From contig CANQBI010000010.1 of assembly GCA_947589435.1 (NCBI GenBank), positions 1-46,577 on the forward strand: 46,577 nt of DNA. Direction: 5' to 3'. A program made the translations under genes and the position numbers. Positions 7,599 through 39,819 of this stretch are shown here, piece by piece. Origin of the DNA: an uncultured Bacilli bacterium (GTDB lineage: Bacteria > Bacillota_I > Bacilli_A > RF39 > UBA660). The notes beneath the pieces were generated by a model. That model saw only the letters and a list, made by a program, of their open reading frames with translations. It was not told the origin of the DNA and did not search any database. The first letter of the stretch is position 1, and every line of letters begins with the position of its first letter.

Positions 7599-9675
7599 CT
7601 TGCACCTCAAAGTCTATTATACCATCACTTTTAGAGGCATTCAAAACTTTTATGGTAACTTTATCGCCAATCTTATACATTTTACTCTTATCTTGATTAA
7701 TTAAGGAAAGCATTTCCGGTACATAATTAAAGTATCCATCAAGCGTACTGACATGAACTAAACCTTCCACTAAATTAGGAAGTTCCACAAAGAAGCCAAA
7801 GTTGGTAACGGTTGTTATCATGCCTTCATAAACTTCGCCAATATGGCTTTCCATGTATTCGGCCATCTTCATATCATCAACTTCTCTTTCGGCATCAACC
7901 GCTGCTTGTTCTCTTTCGGATGAATGCTCCGCAACTTCCACTAAATACTTGTTATAATAATTAATTGTTTCTTTATCTAACTTTTTATCAAATAAATATG
8001 TTCTTAATAACTGATGCACTGTGGTATCAGGAAATCTTCTAATGGGTGATGTAAAATGCGTATAATTTTTTAAGCCTAAACCAAAGTGTCCAATATTGGT
8101 GGCACTATAAATAGCTTTTTGCATACTTCTTAAAAGCATCTTCGATAATATTTCTTTTTCTTCTAAACCATCTAAACTATCTAATAGCCTATTAACATCT
8201 CTGCCACTCGTACTAATACCTCTTGTATTCACATTAACTTTTAACACTTTTAAAAGATTCATAAAGTCTTCAATTTTCTCTGGTTTTGGTTCTCCATGAA
8301 CCCGATAAATAAAAGGTAAGTCCATGTTAAAAATATGGGTGGCTACAGTTTCATTCGCCGCAATCATAAAGTCTTCGATTAACTTTTCCCCTTCTCTTTG
8401 TTCTCTTTTAACAATATCAATACATTTCCCGTTTTCATCTTGAATTATTTTTGGTTCGGGTATATCAAATTCAATATAACCCATTTTAACTTTTCTTTTT
8501 CTTAAGATATGAGCAAGTTCATTCATAAGTAATAAATCATCTTTATATTTTTCATAACCTTCGGGTATAGTATTTTCTTCTAATATTTTATTAACACACT
8601 TATAAGTCATTTGTTTCCGGCTTTTAATTACAGATGGAAAAATATCATAACTAACAACTTTTCCCTCATTATCAATGTCCATAACACAACTAATAGCTAG
8701 TCTTTCGACTTCCGGATTTAAAGAACAAATACCATTAGAAAGTTCATGAGGAAGCATCGGTAAAACTCTATCAGCTAAGTAAGAAGAAGTACCTCTAGAG
8801 TATGCTTCATCATATAAATGCGTACCTGGTTTCACATAATAACTTACATCCGCAATATGCACTCCTAACTCATATAGATTATCTTTTTTCTTAATACTAA
8901 TCGCATCATCAATATCTTTAGTATCATCCCCATCAATTGTGAATATTACTTCCCCAGTTAAATCAGTTCTTCCTACTTTATCACTTTCTCTTACTTCATC
9001 AGGAATACTTTCTAATTCTTTTTTAACTTCATCACTAAACTCTAATTCGATATTATGTTTATAAGCAATAGTTAAAATATCAATATCTGGGTCATTTTTA
9101 TGCCCAATTATTTTTAAAATTACCCCTCTAAATTTATGATGGGATACTTGTTCTTTTAACTCTACTAAAACTTTATGCCCATCAACTAAATTAGCAAAAT
9201 GGTTTATAAGTTCCACTTCAATATCTAATTTTTTATCATCCACTATTAAGGTTGGCTCATCATTTACATAGAGAATTTCCCCAATTACAGTATTAAGTTT
9301 TCGATCTAATATCTTTAATACTTTACCCTCTAATTTATTATTTCTTTCAAAAACATCGACTAAAACCGTATCCCCATTAATTGCCCCATTTAAATTATCA
9401 CTACTAATAAATAAGTCTCCTTCTTCTTTTAATAAAAAAGCATAACCATTTTTGGTAACTTCAATTTTACCTGCTAAAAGAGAAGCACAATTACTCATAA
9501 GCATATATTTACTTTTCTTAGTCTCGTGAACAATCCCACTTTTTATTAATTCACTTAAAACATTTTGAAGTTCTTCTAATTCTTCAGCATTTTTTAATCC
9601 TAAATAATCATTAATTTCCATTAATGTCTTTGCTTTATCATCTAATTTTAAATATTCTAATACTTTATCCCTCAT
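7585..9675 (-). CDS. rnr: Ribonuclease R
   Basis: 696 residues, near the family norm. Domains in order: N-terminal helix-turn-helix-like RNase_R region (about 1-70), two cold-shock/OB domains (to about 220), the RNB catalytic domain with GDDTKDIDDAIS (metal-binding aspartates) and HIADVSYYV, then a C-terminal S1 domain (GEVYEGMITTVTNFGFFVEL). It is a 3' to 5' exoribonuclease that degrades structured RNA and works with SmpB/tmRNA on faulty mRNAs. AGAGGGGAAG precedes ATG 9675. The gene overlaps the end of the pilin-like gene, so the group is one operon. Confidence 0.96.
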   Translation of the reverse strand: MRDKVLEYLKLDDKAKTLMEINDYLGLKNAEELEELQNVLSELIKSGIVHETKKSKYMLMSNCASLLAGKIEVTKNGYAFLLKEEGDLFISSDNLNGAINGDTVLVDVFERNNKLEGKVLKILDRKLNTVIGEILYVNDEPTLIVDDKKLDIEVELINHFANLVDGHKVLVELKEQVSHHKFRGVILKIIGHKNDPDIDILTIAYKHNIELEFSDEVKKELESIPDEVRESDKVGRTDLTGEVIFTIDGDDTKDIDDAISIKKKDNLYELGVHIADVSYYVKPGTHLYDEAYSRGTSSYLADRVLPMLPHELSNGICSLNPEVERLAISCVMDIDNEGKVVSYDIFPSVIKSRKQMTYKCVNKILEENTIPEGYEKYKDDLLLMNELAHILRKRKVKMGYIEFDIPEPKIIQDENGKCIDIVKREQREGEKLIEDFMIAANETVATHIFNMDLPFIYRVHGEPKPEKIEDFMNLLKVLKVNVNTRGISTSGRDVNRLLDSLDGLEEKEILSKMLLRSMQKAIYSATNIGHFGLGLKNYTHFTSPIRRFPDTTVHQLLRTYLFDKKLDKETINYYNKYLVEVAEHSSEREQAAVDAEREVDDMKMAEYMESHIGEVYEGMITTVTNFGFFVELPNLVEGLVHVSTLDGYFNYVPEMLSLINQDKSKMYKIGDKVTIKVLNASKSDGIIDFEVQDGNN

Positions 9676-10027
9676 TTTCTTCCCCTCTTACATAACTACA
9701 TTTCTTTTCGCCATCGCTAGATATAGTAACCTCTACTTCTTCACTTTTATCTATTTCTTCATTTGTACAAGCATTTATATCTGTTCCAATAAAACCATCA
9801 CTTATTAAATCTCCTAAGGTAATATTACAACCATCTTTACAAATGTCTTTATTAAGTCCTGCGTAAACACAAGCCGCTTCTTCTACTTCTTTTGCAAAAT
9901 TACTGCATTTATCATTATCTTCACTATTAAGCATACTTGATATATTAATAGTTACTATTACTCCTAAAGAAGCCACAAGAGCTATAACTACTAAAATTTC
10001 TATTAATGTAAAACCTTTATTATTCAT
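9665..10027 (-). CDS. Type IV pilin-like prepilin
   Basis: About 120 residues. The short leader MNNKG is followed by FTLIEILVVIALVASLGVIV, the N-methylation/prepilin cleavage motif and hydrophobic helix of type IV pilins and ComG pseudopilins, with the invariant Glu at +5. The mature domain has six Cys (including CKDGC), likely disulfide-bonded outside. No pilus assembly genes lie nearby, and the position in front of rnr is unusual. ATG 10027 is chosen over an upstream GTG at 10036 because it gives the normal short leader. Confidence 0.85.
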   Translation of the reverse strand: MNNKGFTLIEILVVIALVASLGVIVTINISSMLNSEDNDKCSNFAKEVEEAACVYAGLNKDICKDGCNITLGDLISDGFIGTDINACTNEEIDKSEEVEVTISSDGEKKCSYVRGEENEG

Positions 10028-10061
10028 ATCTATCACATCTTAATTATAACACTTAACCATT

Positions 10062-10090
10062 AAAAAAGATATTCTATTCCAAGAATATCT
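10062..10090 (-). terminator. Terminator after the XRE gene
   Basis: Minus strand AGATATTC-TTGGAATA-GAATATCT followed by TTTTTTAA. Confidence 0.88.
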
Positions 10091-10093
10091 AAA

Positions 10094-10336
10094 CTATTTA
10101 ATATCGAAATCTAAATCATCAAATACTTTATCATCAAAAAATTCACTTAAAGGAATATCAAACCCCTCACATATCTTACAAATTGTTACCATGGTCGGAT
10201 TTTTACTTCTCCCATTTAAAATACTATCAACAGTACTTTGCATAAGTCCGGCGTTTGTTGATAACTTGTTAACAGACATATTCCTCTCATATAACAACTT
10301 ATTTATTTTAGTTTTAATTGCTTCATTCACTTCCAT
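10094..10336 (-). CDS. Small XRE-family transcription regulator
   Basis: About 80 residues, essentially one Cro/CI helix-turn-helix (NKLSTNAGLMQSTVDSILNG as helices 2-3), with an acidic tail DDKVFDDLDFD. ATG 10336 is preferred over TTG 10345. It lies downstream of the surface operon and has a 236-nt upstream region holding an inverted motif (GTTGGAAATACCGA and its interrupted mirror). The same motif occurs in front of both surface operons, so this protein is a candidate regulator of them (inference). Confidence 0.8.
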   Translation of the reverse strand: MEVNEAIKTKINKLLYERNMSVNKLSTNAGLMQSTVDSILNGRSKNPTMVTICKICEGFDIPLSEFFDDKVFDDLDFDIK

Positions 10337-10392
10337 AACTATCAACCCATATTAATAATATAACCAAGTTTCTTTAACCATCTAACGATAAA

Positions 10393-10572: not shown

Positions 10573-11763
10573 TTATGCATTTGCTTTGCTTGTAATAATA
10601 AATGGATTTGTTTCGGTTCCTTCTCCTACTAGTCCTATCTCGTTTGTTAGATAGAAGACCGGACGTACCGCAGACGTACCGGTTGCAGAGTCGCTGCTCA
10701 AGGAGCCGGACCTATCCACATACCACGGCCAAAAATAGCCGAGGTAGCGGCCATACCTAGTCATTGTCCATTCGTATGTACTTCCATATGTTGTTGATAC
10801 ATCACTTCTTCCGTTTGTTATGTGTAACCAACTATTGGTGTTAGAACTATATGTCCATGAATTATAATAGTCACTTTGATACATCAATCCTATTTGATAA
10901 TTTTTTGATTTTTTTGATGTTGTTTCTGTTCCTCCAGTACTTGTTTTATCTCCTATCCACCATAATGGATTATCTATTAATGTCTTCCACTCTGCATCTA
11001 TTGTATTTAAGAATGTTCCATTTAAATATGTCTTTACTTCTGCTGAATCCCATTGAACATCAGATTCATAATCGCTGGTCCATGCTTGACCTGTCTTTGA
11101 TGGTATGGCTCTTATTATTTTTAATTGTCCTGCTTCTAATTCTAGTCCTGTATTTACATTATTATCCGTTATTCCTATTATTCTATATAAGTACTTATCC
11201 CTATTATCTACTCCTGTTTTTGTGCATGTATCTATATTGGTTGTTCCAAAACATATGTAATTATTTGTTACTTGTGCTGCTGTTCCTTTATATCTGTACA
11301 TTCCATCGACATTGGTTTCGGTAAAGGTTGTTGCGCTGCTTCCGCCTGTTGCATGTCCTTTTAATACTTCTAAAGCAGGTCTTCCTTTAGCAAAGTATAA
11401 AGTGCAATATATAGTTTGTTTTGTTTTAATGTGGGCTGTGTATGTTGTTTCATTAAAGGTTAAGACACTTGTTGTTGGTATCTTTACCCCTTCACTATCT
11501 GTACATTCTGTTCCTACATATGTATATTTTGTTTTATCTGGCCATTGTGTTCTATCTTCTGCCTCATGCCATCCAAAATCATTCTCTCCTTCATTTTGAA
11601 CCATTATAGCTAGTGATTTGTCTTTTTCTTTAAATACATCTATTGTTTTGATATCTTCAAGGATTTTACTTTTATTATTTGGTTTATATAATAAATATAA
11701 TGATATTGCCTCTACTAATAATAGTATAACTACTATGCTTATTAATATTTTTTTCTTTTTCAT
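10573..11763 (-). CDS. Variable surface protein (signal anchor, DUF6273-like end)
   Basis: 396 residues. A signal-anchor helix (about 4-24) is followed by a domain with WHEAEDR and KTKQTIYCTLYFAKGRPAL, a middle part with NNYICFG and YRIIGI, and a C-terminal lectin/FGE-like part with WDSAEVKTYLNGTF, GLMYQSDYYNSW, WTMTR, AVRPVFYL and GEGTETNPFII. It is a paralogue of the 35795-37006 gene. The stretch between WTMTR and AVRPVFYL is GC-rich and quite different from the paralogue. A role in adhesion or ligand display at the cell surface is inferred. It follows the 11778-12458 gene by 14 nt. Confidence 0.82.
   Translation of the reverse strand: MKKKKILISIVVILLLVEAISLYLLYKPNNKSKILEDIKTIDVFKEKDKSLAIMVQNEGENDFGWHEAEDRTQWPDKTKYTYVGTECTDSEGVKIPTTSVLTFNETTYTAHIKTKQTIYCTLYFAKGRPALEVLKGHATGGSSATTFTETNVDGMYRYKGTAAQVTNNYICFGTTNIDTCTKTGVDNRDKYLYRIIGITDNNVNTGLELEAGQLKIIRAIPSKTGQAWTSDYESDVQWDSAEVKTYLNGTFLNTIDAEWKTLIDNPLWWIGDKTSTGGTETTSKKSKNYQIGLMYQSDYYNSWTYSSNTNSWLHITNGRSDVSTTYGSTYEWTMTRYGRYLGYFWPWYVDRSGSLSSDSATGTSAVRPVFYLTNEIGLVGEGTETNPFIITSKANA
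10672..10755 (-). other. GC-rich variable block in the surface-protein gene
   Basis: By hand count 48 of 84 bases are G or C (57%) in a gene and genome that are otherwise mostly A+T. It is bounded by sequences conserved in the paralogue (GAATGGACAATGACTAGG and GCGGTACGTCCGGTCTTCTA). It encodes about 28 residues that do not align with the paralogue. Confidence 0.75.
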
Positions 11764-11777
11764 ATATCTTTAACTCC

Positions 11778-12458
11778 TTATTTAAAATATGCATAACAAG
11801 TATTTGGGCCATCTGTATCTATTGTAAATCCATCTGTATCATTGTAATTTATATTGGTGGCAACACTCGCATTTGAACATTTATATCCTACATATGTCTT
11901 TCCTGTTGGTATAGTACTAGACATTTTATATTTATTTCCTTCATATTCTCTATCTCCACTTGAATCTTGTATATAGGCATAGACTATTACATCAGATATC
12001 TTATCTCTATCATAATAAAGTCTGCAGACTATTTGGTTAGGTTTAGTTTCTGATACTGTTACATCTACTGTACCGTCACTACTTATTGTATAATCTGGAT
12101 TATATGTTGTTCCTTCTTCATTATCTTTTGGATAACAATTTGATATATCTTGATTTAAAGTAAATCCTGTTACTGGTACTTCTTTATTTTCTTTATATTT
12201 TTTTGGATTATCGGGCATTTGGGTATACCATATAACATTAACATCAGTACTTTTATTACTTAAAGGACCATCTTTTACTGTTTCACCTTCTCCAGCAAAG
12301 TTTCCTACTTTAGATGTAAATATAGGTACTGGTGCCATATCATAATTATAATAAGCATGAGTTTCTTTCATAACTAATCTAAACAATGTTATAAATACCA
12401 CTATTGAAAGAATAGTTATTAAAATATATATCTTTTTATTCTCTATATTTTTTATCAT
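11778..12458 (-). CDS. Surface protein with signal anchor, first gene of operon 1
   Basis: 226 residues. A basic start and one membrane helix (about 10-29) precede ETHAYYNYDMAPVPIFTSKV and NFAGEGE, then an extracytoplasmic domain with IVCRLYYDRDKISDVIVYAY and the end CYAYFK. It is a paralogue of the gene at 37021-37855, sharing HAYYNY, VPIFTSKVGNFAGEGE, TDVN and CYAYF. GGAGG precedes ATG 12458. It is transcribed from a consensus promoter about 135 nt upstream. Function unknown; probably partners the following surface protein. Confidence 0.82.
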   Translation of the reverse strand: MIKNIENKKIYILITILSIVVFITLFRLVMKETHAYYNYDMAPVPIFTSKVGNFAGEGETVKDGPLSNKSTDVNVIWYTQMPDNPKKYKENKEVPVTGFTLNQDISNCYPKDNEEGTTYNPDYTISSDGTVDVTVSETKPNQIVCRLYYDRDKISDVIVYAYIQDSSGDREYEGNKYKMSSTIPTGKTYVGYKCSNASVATNINYNDTDGFTIDTDGPNTCYAYFK

Positions 12459-35794: not shown

Positions 35795-37006
35795 TTAATT
35801 ATTAGGTAAACTTGTTATTATATAAGGATGTTCTTTTGTACCTTCTCCTGTTAAGTTTACTCTAGGTATAAGATAGAACACTGGGCGAACCGCATACTCA
35901 AATTCCACACGGCCATTTACATACTCAAAGGCACCGCTTGAAAGCACATACCATGCATAGGTCCAAAAGATGTCGCTGTTATACTCAAACCTAGACATGG
36001 TCCATTCGTCTGTAGTTGAATTATTTACCCACCCATTTGCTATAAACAACCAACTATTAACATTATTTGCATATGCCCACGAGTTATAATAATCACTTGC
36101 ATACATTAACCCTATTTTACTTTCGTTAGTTTGACTTGTTTTGGGTTCTGTTGTTTCTGGGGTGTTTGTTTGATCAGCATTATACCATTTATGGCTACTT
36201 ATAATACTTTCCCAATATGATGCATCTGGTATTCTTGTTTGTTCTGTTACAAAGATTGCGTCATAGAAGGTTTCGTTTAAATAACGTTTTACTTCTGACG
36301 AATCCCATTTTATATCTGAAGTATAAATTGAATTCCATGGTTGACTTTCACTTGATGGTACTGCCCTTATTATTTTTAATTGATTGGCCTCTAATCCTAT
36401 TTCGCTATCTACTTCTGATGTTATTCCTATTATTCTATACATATAATTTCCAGAATCATTTGCTGTACATGTACTCTCTACAATTGTTCCAAAGCATATA
36501 TAATTATTTAAATTATGATTTGTTACATCAATTTGTGTTCCTTTAAAACGATATAGTCCATCTACTTCTGTAGTATGTTCTCCTCCTCCTGCAAATGCAC
36601 TTCCACCTTTGGCCTTTAAATGATCTATAGCTGGTTCCCCTGTTGCAAAGTATAAAGTACAATATGTTGTTTGTTTTGTCTTTATGGTGGCTGTTTTATC
36701 AGCAAGACTAAATGTTAATACTTTTTCCCAATCTATATCGTGTCCTTCACTATCTGTACACTCTGCTCCAACAAAACCATGAGTGCTTGGATCAGGCCAT
36801 TTACTTCTATCTTCTGCCTCATGCCACTCACCATTTGTTTCTTGTATCCATATTGCTAATGATTTATCATTACTTTTTAAAATTTTTTGAGTTTCGATTT
36901 CGTCTATTTTGTTAGGATTAGTCAATTCTTTTATCATTTCATATCCTCCATATATAACCCCTATTGTTGCTAGTATAATTATAATTTTTAATATTATTTT
37001 CTTCAT
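35795..37006 (-). CDS. Variable surface protein, second gene of operon 2
   Basis: 403 residues, paralogue of 10573-11763. Signal anchor (about 4-24), GEWHEAEDRSKWPD, TIKTKQTTYCTLYFATGEPA, YRIIGI, WDSSEVKRYLNETF, GLMYASDYYNSWAY, EWTMSR, AVRPVFYL and GEGTKEHPYII. The part between EWTMSR and AVRPVFYL differs completely from the paralogue and includes FEY three times, each encoded by TTTGAGTAT. Extra insert TPETTEPKTSQTNES before the GLMY motif. Probably a displayed ligand-binding protein (inference). Confidence 0.82.
   Translation of the reverse strand: MKKIILKIIIILATIGVIYGGYEMIKELTNPNKIDEIETQKILKSNDKSLAIWIQETNGEWHEAEDRSKWPDPSTHGFVGAECTDSEGHDIDWEKVLTFSLADKTATIKTKQTTYCTLYFATGEPAIDHLKAKGGSAFAGGGEHTTEVDGLYRFKGTQIDVTNHNLNNYICFGTIVESTCTANDSGNYMYRIIGITSEVDSEIGLEANQLKIIRAVPSSESQPWNSIYTSDIKWDSSEVKRYLNETFYDAIFVTEQTRIPDASYWESIISSHKWYNADQTNTPETTEPKTSQTNESKIGLMYASDYYNSWAYANNVNSWLFIANGWVNNSTTDEWTMSRFEYNSDIFWTYAWYVLSSGAFEYVNGRVEFEYAVRPVFYLIPRVNLTGEGTKEHPYIITSLPNN
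35894..35989 (-). other. Variable block of surface operon 2
   Basis: 96 nt, about 42% G+C by hand count, bounded by GAATGGACCATGTCTAGG and GCGGTTCGCCCAGTGTTCTA, which match the boundaries of the block in operon 1. It contains the 9-mer TTTGAGTAT three times, partly reaching the boundary. Confidence 0.7.
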
Positions 37007-37020
37007 TATATATTTCCTTT

Positions 37021-37855
37021 CTATTTATTAAAATAGGCATAACAGGTATCTGGTCCAGTTGATGTTATCGTAAAGCCATTAGTAACATCATAAGCAAATG
37101 TTGTATTTGATTTTTCTTGATGCTTACATTCATAATCACTCATTTCAGTATAACTACTATCTAGGGTATTGACTAACTTATATGTTTTATCTCCATGTTT
37201 TTTATCTCCAGTTTCATCTTCAACATAAGCGTAAATTATTACATCGGATAATTTATCTCTATCATAATATATTCGACATACTACTTGAGTTGGTTTTGAT
37301 TCTTCAGTATAATTTATAATTAAATTTCCTTCATCATCTATTGTATATGAATTATATAAAACATCTCCTCCTGTTGCTGGATAACAATTACTTGATTCTT
37401 TATTTACTTTATAACCATTCACTGGTAAGTATTTACTTATCATATACTTTTTAGCATCATCAGGCATTTGCGTGTAAAAGATTATATTAACATCCGTATT
37501 CCTATCAGTAAGTGGTCCGGTTTTGACTGGTTCTCCTTCTCCGGCAAAGTTTCCTACTTTACTGGTGAATATTGGTACCCATCCACTTTCGTAATTATAG
37601 TAAGCATGAGTTGCACTTATTATTCTAAATAAAGTCATAACAAAAAGAGCGAGAATGATATAACTTATTTCTCGTTTATATTTTAAATTCTTATATTTTT
37701 CTTTTATATTATAAAGTTTATCTTTTAAATTATTAAATGGTATGAATACTAAAGATATTAGGGTGTTACAATAACCCCCCCCCGATGCTACTTATTAGAA
37801 CTACTAACATAATTACTGTTACATATAGTACTAAGTTTTTATTCTCTTTCTTCAT
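37021..37855 (-). CDS. Phase-variable surface protein, currently out of frame (G9)
   Basis: From ATG 37855 (AGAGG upstream) the frame encodes a membrane helix (NLVLYVTVIMLVVLISS), enters nine G and stops after 29 residues. With eight or eleven G it runs on through ISYIILALFVMTLFRIISAT and HAYYNYESGWVPIFTSKVGN to the stop at 37021, 277 residues with eight G. The paralogue at 11778-12458 has one intact helix before HAYYNY. The only internal ATG in the lower part, 37638, would give 205 residues with a truncated helix. This is the hallmark of slipped-strand ON/OFF switching, or a genuine frameshift, or a sequencing error. Confidence 0.75.
37775..37783. repeat. Nine-base C (G on coding strand) homopolymer
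   Basis: A run of nine C on the plus strand in an otherwise very AT-rich region, inside the 5' part of the surface gene. Changing the count by -1 or +2 restores the reading frame. Confidence 0.95.
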
Positions 37856-37907
37856 ACTCTTTTACCTCTTTTATATTATTAATATATTTATTTAATTTTA
37901 TACTTAT

Positions 37908-38347: not shown

Positions 38348-38794
38348 TTACACTTCTACTAAATTATTTTCTGATATTGCCTCATAAATTTTTAATTTCA
38401 TTTCTTCTGATTCAAATGTACCATTGAAATATGATTCAAAAATTTCATGTAAAAATTGTTTACTTATTTTTCCAGCTGCAACATGATAACTAATATTTTC
38501 CATATCATAAATAAATTTTGATGCTATGTTTAAATATCCATTCAAAAGAAGAAACTGAGCACTTAACGATAATGCTAATCTTTTATTTCCATCAGCAAAA
38601 CAATGAAATTGACAAGTACAATAGAACAAATGAGTTAATTTATCTACAAATGTTGGATAATATTCGTCATTTTGTATATTTTGGAGTACAGATTCTAGTT
38701 GTCCAAAGTGAATAATATCGGTAGTTCCTCCTCCACTCACTTCAATAGTAGTCTTATGTATGCTTTTAGCTTGTTCACTAGTAATATAATACAT
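38348..38794 (-). CDS. Doc-type Fic-domain toxin
   Basis: 148 residues. The Fic/Doc motif is HCFADGNKRLAL (H-x-F-x-D-G-N-K-R) near residue 60-70, with the N-terminal YYITSEQAKSIHKT and GLES-like loop typical of Doc. Doc proteins phosphorylate EF-Tu; Fic relatives add AMP. The catalytic His is present, so it is probably active. Its ATG overlaps the stop codon of the upstream RhuM-like gene by one base, indicating coupled translation with that partner. Confidence 0.9.
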   Translation of the reverse strand: MYYITSEQAKSIHKTTIEVSGGGTTDIIHFGQLESVLQNIQNDEYYPTFVDKLTHLFYCTCQFHCFADGNKRLALSLSAQFLLLNGYLNIASKFIYDMENISYHVAAGKISKQFLHEIFESYFNGTFESEEMKLKIYEAISENNLVEV

Positions 38795-39819
38795 TACTCT
38801 CTCTCCTTTAAGCGCTCAAAAACATCTTTTGCTTCTTCTAATCTTTCTTTTAAATCTTCACTTTTTTCTCCTAAAAATCTTTCATATTCTGTTGCTTCTA
38901 ATGGAGTAATATAATCTTTTAATTTTATATGTAAAGCATCTCTAAAAGCAAAATCTCTACTTGCCATTTTAACACGAACTTTGTTAATTAATGGTTTATA
39001 CAATGATTGTTTTTCAAATTCTCCAAATAACTCATCTGTCTCATATGGAGTTAATTTTCTTTCTAACTCATTATATTTATTTGTAATAACTTCGGCTAAT
39101 CCAGTTTCATAAGATGCTATTAAGTCAAGAACCTCTGAATAAAATGTATCTCTAGTTTTATCTTTTTTTTCTAATTTTAATATACTTCTATATTCTGCAG
39201 CTTTTTCTCTAAAAATACTTTCATATATTTTATCAGTATATATAGCATATTTTATATTTCCCATTGCCACGTAATTATTCAAAGCATCTGTAAATTCTCT
39301 TCTATAATTCTCTTCATCAAACCACGAATTTAAAAAATCTTCATCTCTTTGATTTATATATTTTGTTGCTCCTCCAGTTTTTACATTTATTGTATCTATT
39401 ACAATATCTAATATGTTTTGTCTTATAATTTTAGCTTTTTCGCTTTCTACTAAAAGCATTCCTACATTTAAAAATGCTTTAAAATCAAATATTCCTAAAG
39501 AAGGTATTGATGATGCAAGGTCTCCGACATTTATGTCGGTGACCTTATCATTATATTTTTTTATAAAAGCTTTAAGCCTACTACCCTTTAATATATCATA
39601 ACCGTTTGCAATAAATTCATCTTTATTGTCTTCTAAATATCTTTCTATAGTTCTAACATCAACCTCATAAAAATTTGCTACTTGTTCCTTAGTAAAAGTT
39701 ATTTTATCTTCAAAGATAATACCATCTATATTACAAGCTTTCTCTATTTCACTCATAGCAAAATTATTATTTAATATATTTTGTCTATCTATTTTAGAAT
39801 TTGTTAAATCTTTTGCCAT
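38794..39819 (-). CDS. RhuM-family DNA-binding protein, partner of Doc
   Basis: 341 residues. N-terminal TFTKEQVANFYEVDVRTIER is a helix-turn-helix used by the RhuM family; the C-terminal half has FNSWF-like DEDFLNSWFDEENYRREF and YETDELFGEFEKQSLYKPLI plus DYITPLEATEYERFLGE. RhuM proteins are often found next to Fic/Doc proteins in toxin-antitoxin-like pairs. Expected to bind its own promoter and oppose the toxin (inference). GGGGAGGAG precedes ATG 39819. Confidence 0.82.
   Translation of the reverse strand: MAKDLTNSKIDRQNILNNNFAMSEIEKACNIDGIIFEDKITFTKEQVANFYEVDVRTIERYLEDNKDEFIANGYDILKGSRLKAFIKKYNDKVTDINVGDLASSIPSLGIFDFKAFLNVGMLLVESEKAKIIRQNILDIVIDTINVKTGGATKYINQRDEDFLNSWFDEENYRREFTDALNNYVAMGNIKYAIYTDKIYESIFREKAAEYRSILKLEKKDKTRDTFYSEVLDLIASYETGLAEVITNKYNELERKLTPYETDELFGEFEKQSLYKPLINKVRVKMASRDFAFRDALHIKLKDYITPLEATEYERFLGEKSEDLKERLEEAKDVFERLKERE

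Follow-up and report, generated by a model that had tools for sequence, protein, structure and literature searches.

We find that a tract of nine G residues near the 5' end of a predicted surface-protein gene is very probably a contingency switch, at which slipped-strand changes in tract length produce phase variation, and which is mostly OFF in the assembled consensus. The gene is located in the window, a contig (C10) of 46,577 nucleotides that belongs to an uncultured Bacilli genome assembled into 62 contigs (1,440,375 bp). Since the genome contains about 20 similarly placed G-runs and many relatives are alike in this respect, the run in the window looks like one switch of a large on/off system. 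While the mechanism is known, the scale, the two switch modes with a single tract length and the uncultured gut Bacilli hosts stand out.

The G9 tract occupies positions 37775..37783 of the minus strand (CCCCCCCCC on the plus strand) and is the sole run of at least seven G within the window. The region 5' of the tract is a hydrophobic start segment of 24 codons (MKKENKNLVLYVTVIMLVVLISSI; 72 nt, 37784..37855, minus strand), which begins at ATG 37855. A Shine-Dalgarno-like AGAGG, judged by eye, is present upstream of this ATG at 37865..37869 (minus strand). Past the tract, the start-segment frame reads TTA TTG TAA and is closed by the TAA at 37766..37768 (minus strand). The downstream frame (250 codons, 37021..37773, minus strand) begins one base past the tract and contains, in order, the linker YCNTLISLVFIP, a second hydrophobic helix, the motif THAYYNY and a predicted all-beta ectodomain. 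G9 leaves the gene (37021-37855, minus strand) out of frame in the assembly. The original prediction had described the nine consecutive G, a stop three codons past them and another register that enters the homologous region at HAYYNY; each of these is present in the sequence, and its 277-codon arithmetic is correct (835 bases from 37855 to 37021).

The extra N-terminal helix was also proposed as a possible switchable element in its own right. This is less likely. The internal ATG 37638 of the downstream frame has no Shine-Dalgarno-like sequence before it, and an internal start was rejected, as no start codon with such a sequence precedes the frame. The whole protein, not the helix alone, should therefore go OFF. 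The promoter scan of the window region returned 23 sites against 20 in shuffles and thus names no promoter for the gene; its tract is of the coding type and not of the promoter-spacer type described below.

Within the window alone the G9 tract is only mildly unusual, with 7 of 100 dinucleotide shuffles equalling the window's G7-match count. It is the genome that places the tract beyond chance. We found 21 runs of at least eight G (18 G9, one G8 and two G10), against 0.45 runs of this length, and 0.055 of at least nine, expected from an order-4 Markov model built on 219 kb of the genome. In 219 kb made up of the window and stretches around the tracts, which were thus chosen to hold them, G/C runs of length 5, 6, 7, 8, 9 and 10 occur 38, 2, 0, 1, 18 and 2 times, and a single exact G7 is found away from contig ends in the whole genome. 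Every one of the 21 tracts is associated with a gene predicted to encode an exported or membrane protein, and lies either at its 5' end or in its promoter region: 12 in a shared N-terminal coding module, 2 at other coding starts and 7 in promoters. Such an excess over composition, and a placement where length change alters frame or promoter spacing, are features of contingency loci. The switch originally predicted for the window locus is supported, amended in that it is one of 21 tracts and represents one of two designs.

For four of the 21 tracts, the nearest contig end is no more than 20 bp away (P = 5e-8), and a further contig, C44, terminates inside a tract. Contigs C1, C5, C28, C42 and C44 of this genome (G000) end inside or within 20 bp of a G-run. 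These ends could reflect length mixtures or repeat collapse; the association is suggestive and is confounded by the repeated module common to the paralogues.

The 12 module tracts fit the pattern ATC-Gn-TTAYTGTA and occupy the same place in the module of one surface-protein family. A thirteenth coding tract (C8:21450, G9) follows a different start segment and requires the other register, and the fourteenth, in C42, is interrupted by the contig end. Among 38 congeneric genomes, three contain 26 coding-type loci: 12 here, 6 in G047 and 8 in G050. The contig numbers and tract lengths of CANRGQ and CANRAA agree with those of G050 and G047; these are apparently identical assemblies and were not counted as independent. 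The tract lengths, derived from metagenome assemblies, are G9 in 22 loci, G10 in two, and G8 and G11 in one each. The start segment is exactly 72 nt long in 25 of 25 loci with an MKK start, and the downstream frame starts one base past the tract in all 23 loci with at least 90 downstream codons. Only the G8 and G11 copies (L099 and L106) are in frame, open as they stand from the start through the ectodomain; none of the 12 loci of this genome is. This share of 2/26 is lower than one third (P = 0.0025), and OFF is thus the usual consensus state.

The downstream frames of the 23 loci are under purifying selection. In 28 pairs with at least 70% identity, dN/dS is 0.20, with 713/533/1654 differences at the three codon positions. 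The two pairs that involve the window gene give 0.24, and the first 12 codons past the tract 0.36 (9 distinct sequences). The coding-type genes are therefore not decaying, and are kept functional though OFF, as expected at contingency loci. The start segment, with a dN/dS of 0.82 and no codon-position bias, is under little constraint except that of length.

Otherwise identical copies differ in tract length. We compared 68 tracts at selected loci, taken from this genome, from two close relatives and from eight further congeners, and found G9 in 52, G8 in 8, G10 in 6 and G11 in 2. In this genome, C4:53580 (G9) and C15:38551 (G8) have identical flanks over 160 bp, and C15:35983 (G9) matches the same G8 copy over 109 bp. 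The flanks of G050:C3 (G9) and G050:C68 (G11) are identical over 108 bp, those of G001:C6 22865 (G9) and 25028 (G8) over 106 bp, and tandem arrays in G001, G004 and G051 likewise differ in tract length. Slippage predicts such differences at identical flanks, here seen between paralogues and species, and not between strains or cells. Together with the 26 module loci in three species, which span G8 to G11, and the two naturally in-frame copies, they make phase variation by tract-length change, as originally proposed, the best-supported reading.

The second design places the tract in a promoter. Seven tracts of this genome either separate a -35 box from a -10 box or immediately precede a -10 box. 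Six of them lie between TTGACA and TATAAT, with a spacer of 19 nt at G9 and 18 nt at G8; the seventh, in C5, is cut by the contig end and has the same downstream sequence as the others. The presence of both boxes in 6/7 tracts, with spacers of 18-19 nt and thus near 17 nt, is a feature of promoter-spacer switches. A -35/-10 spacing of 17 nt is best, so a G9 promoter at 19 nt should be weaker than a G8 one. In the 38 congeneric genomes, the promoter pattern, which allowed G5 upward, matches 59 times in 15 genomes (14 G8, 41 G9, 3 G10 and one interrupted), while the reversed pattern, used as a control, has 0 matches.

Six of the seven promoter tracts precede MKNLKMFA... proteins. Those read to their end contain NPETND, which we take to be sortase-like, followed by a hydrophobic stretch and a basic tail. 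One promoter tract precedes two MEKKNT...ATFAYFS proteins, whose start is presumably a TasA/camelysin-like signal. These terminal hydrophobic and signal features suggest a surface location for the promoter-type products. All Pfam matches of the promoter-type and the natural in-frame proteins were weak and below the cut-off, and neither Pfam nor NCBIfam gave a family that backs surface location.

A single process, slipped-strand length change, accounts for both designs. During replication, mispairing would add or remove a G more often than mutation occurs elsewhere, probably at a high rate and reversibly. At coding-type loci, tract length would determine if translation continues from the start segment into the ectodomain to give a single protein; with G9 or G10 it would not, and would end 3-5 codons past the tract. 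At promoter-type loci, tract length would set the -35/-10 distance of further genes for putative surface proteins. A single population would then contain cells that differ in the combination of putative surface proteins they express, while at any given time the majority of loci would be OFF or weak; this variation may serve as bet-hedging with respect to antibody, phage or niche. Loss of mismatch repair was rejected as a driver: MutS and MutL are each present in 33 of the 38 genomes, this one included. With both proteins present, no repair loss raises slippage, and rates may be modest.

By the features examined here, from sequence alone, the tracts belong to the simple-sequence-repeat phase-variable loci. 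Several observations speak against a switch: free slippage should yield a wider spread of lengths than the one found, in which 22/26 coding tracts are G9; fewer than one third of the copies are in frame; MutS and MutL are present; and the start segment shows little protein-level constraint (see the dN/dS above). Homopolymer slippage in transcription or translation is established, and G9 could instead be a programmed slippery site, at which ribosome frameshifting or RNA polymerase slippage gives some expression and the length is selected as nine. The predominance of G9 and the protein-level conservation of downstream frames that are out of frame at G9 would fit such a site. We nevertheless regard it as improbable, since promoter spacers, which have no reading frame, contain tracts of the same length, and a fixed frameshift signal would be lost in the natural G8, G10 and G11 copies. 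The frame relation is not constant, with lengths of 8-11; the downstream frame of C8:21450 (also G9) is in the other register, so that one fixed shift cannot serve both.

It is also conceivable, though very unlikely, that the true length differs from the assembled one, for example is always in frame, and that G9 is a systematic miscall. The tracts near contig ends, including that of C44, indicate that assembly is difficult there. In its available passages, a study of Bifidobacterium breve reports problems with Illumina reads of G-tracts and cautions that assembled lengths can be off (PMC9187656). However, the same tool chain yielded 8, 9, 10 and 11 at identically flanked sites, many genomes agree, and the contig ends may merely reflect the repeated module common to paralogues. 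That an ordinary frameshift has turned the window gene into a pseudogene is scarcely credible. The assembly does show the gene out of frame, and intact, module-less paralogues exist (there are 43 family matches in the genome), but purifying selection maintains an intact downstream frame in every module-family member that has sufficient sequence, and independent decay is not expected to give 12 of 12 loci the same lesion. A decaying pseudogene was therefore rejected.

If the tracts are contingency switches, as we favor, it is possible, although rather unlikely, that nine is a maintained set-point of two unrelated switch designs, forming a genome-wide default-OFF surface dial instead of about 20 independent coins. 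In this genome, the assembled G9 would then be the weak or silent state (out of frame, or a 19-nt spacer), loss of one G would give the stronger state (in frame, or 18 nt), and a changed slippage bias would shift the whole surface-protein set in one direction.

G-runs are widespread in the genus. The 38 congeneric genomes contain 205 exact G9 runs, in 31 genomes (7 are without any), and 66 exact G7 runs, in 25. C precedes 138 of the 150 exact G9 runs among those listed, against 28 of 66 exact G7 runs, perhaps through shared ancestry of modules. The named relatives are uncultured Bacilli metagenome-assembled genomes labelled 'Lapin', a name that suggests a rabbit origin. Across the class, 395 genomes from 192 genera were sampled; the promoter pattern is found in 24 of these genomes and 16 of these genera, and the reversed pattern in none. 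Outside the genus there are 51 matches, in which the tract is 8-11 long and the spacer 14-25 nt, most commonly 18 (13 matches), 19 (12) and 17 (9). We inspected the downstream genes of 12 extra-genus loci, with one locus per genome in 12 of the 22 genomes, and 9 precede a gene with a signal- or lipoprotein-like start, by eye. The remaining three, L143 (regulator-like), L152 (small heat-shock-like) and L145 (of unclear type), are without a signal-like start and may be chance matches. Within the genus, some tracts in G016, G022 and G023 have other boxes or spacing and also fit a spacer role by eye; on G016:C66 (L131), tandem pseudopilin-like genes lie behind TTGACA-N5-G9/G11-TATGAT, a differently spaced promoter. 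G034, from another family of the class (2.4 Mb), carries seven G-runs of 9 to 12 on one contig and has no match to the promoter pattern.

In Neisseria, a poly-G between the -35 and -10 boxes of porA and opc tunes their spacing as in the promoter type here, although genes and bacteria are unrelated and only one or few such loci occur. The pilus switch of B. breve is the nearest measured case. In the available passages of that study, G-tracts in bbr_0113 and bbr_1889 show length mixtures, measured in-frame phenotypes and in-frame enrichment in mice (PMC9187656). As here, an intragenic G-tract close to the 5' end splits a surface gene (a sortase-pilus gene) of a Gram-positive gut commensal into two frames, tract length decides on the full-length product, and the downstream start is without a Shine-Dalgarno sequence. 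B. breve differs in its few loci (two in UCC2003), its G10-G12 lengths, its phylum and its protein family, and the passages seen do not describe a promoter type (PMC9187656). The Vlp system of Mycoplasma hyorhinis, as far as the source was available, resembles the promoter type in that homopolymer length in the promoter region switches transcription of several surface-protein genes, but it uses poly-A, has no coding-frame type and concerns lipoproteins of a wall-less parasite (PMC10502178). According to the accessible parts of two papers, the phasomes of Campylobacter and Neisseria are likewise multi-locus, mostly homopolymeric surface-gene switches, but of Proteobacteria, whereas here they occur in uncultured Bacilli with one recurring length (PMC6321876, PMC5953494). 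Candidatus Mycoplasma girerdii, in the text available, is also metagenome-resolved with an OFF consensus, and its surface proteins have low-frequency ON variants; it differs in using mostly dinucleotide repeats, with only two length-variable homopolymers (PMC5476646). The emphasis of Orsi et al. is, in the part seen, on poly-A/T and not poly-G (PMC2831843). The literature searched, which covers few subscription journals, yielded no description of poly-G switching for these Bacilli.

A 2025 review, in its available text, treats it as an open question that genomes with many phase-variable loci appear to be confined to pathogens, and proposes database bias (PMC11868660). A 1.4-Mb uncultured gut bacterium with about 20 such loci, in a genus of which most members have some, bears on this question, which is now directly testable in public metagenome reads. 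Automated annotation will call such genes pseudogenes or truncated.

The tract module is thus an addition to a larger family that otherwise has no such switch, since most members are without it. Among the best 30 of the 43 matches in an ectodomain profile search of the genome, 8 carry the tract, 21 have a single helix and no module, and one is the C44 copy, with the module present and the contig ending inside the G-run. On relatives' contigs, the tract is present in 9 of 36 relatives, the module lies at a contig edge in one and is found in none of the other 26. In the window, the paralogue at 11778..12458 (minus strand) is intact, as originally stated: a 226-aa protein with a single N-terminal helix and no tract module. 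Its partner gene (10573..11763, minus strand) and the second gene of the switch operon (35795..37006, minus strand; 403 aa, 14 bp behind the switch gene, with its own ribosome-binding-like site) both show a weak match to DUF6273, below the Pfam cut-off. The ectodomain model is all-beta and of moderate quality (mean pLDDT 68). Assignment to a known family was rejected: Pfam and NCBIfam gave no match for the ectodomain, and the fold search none at E 0.001 (best 0.029, cadherin-type beta domains).

A pseudopilin-like gene (N_methyl, PF07963) and an HTH regulator (9665-10345) adjoin the operon of the untracted paralogue. Directly upstream of the switch gene, at 38348-39819, a Fic/Doc-family protein (PF02661) and a 341-aa gene look like a toxin-antitoxin-type pair.
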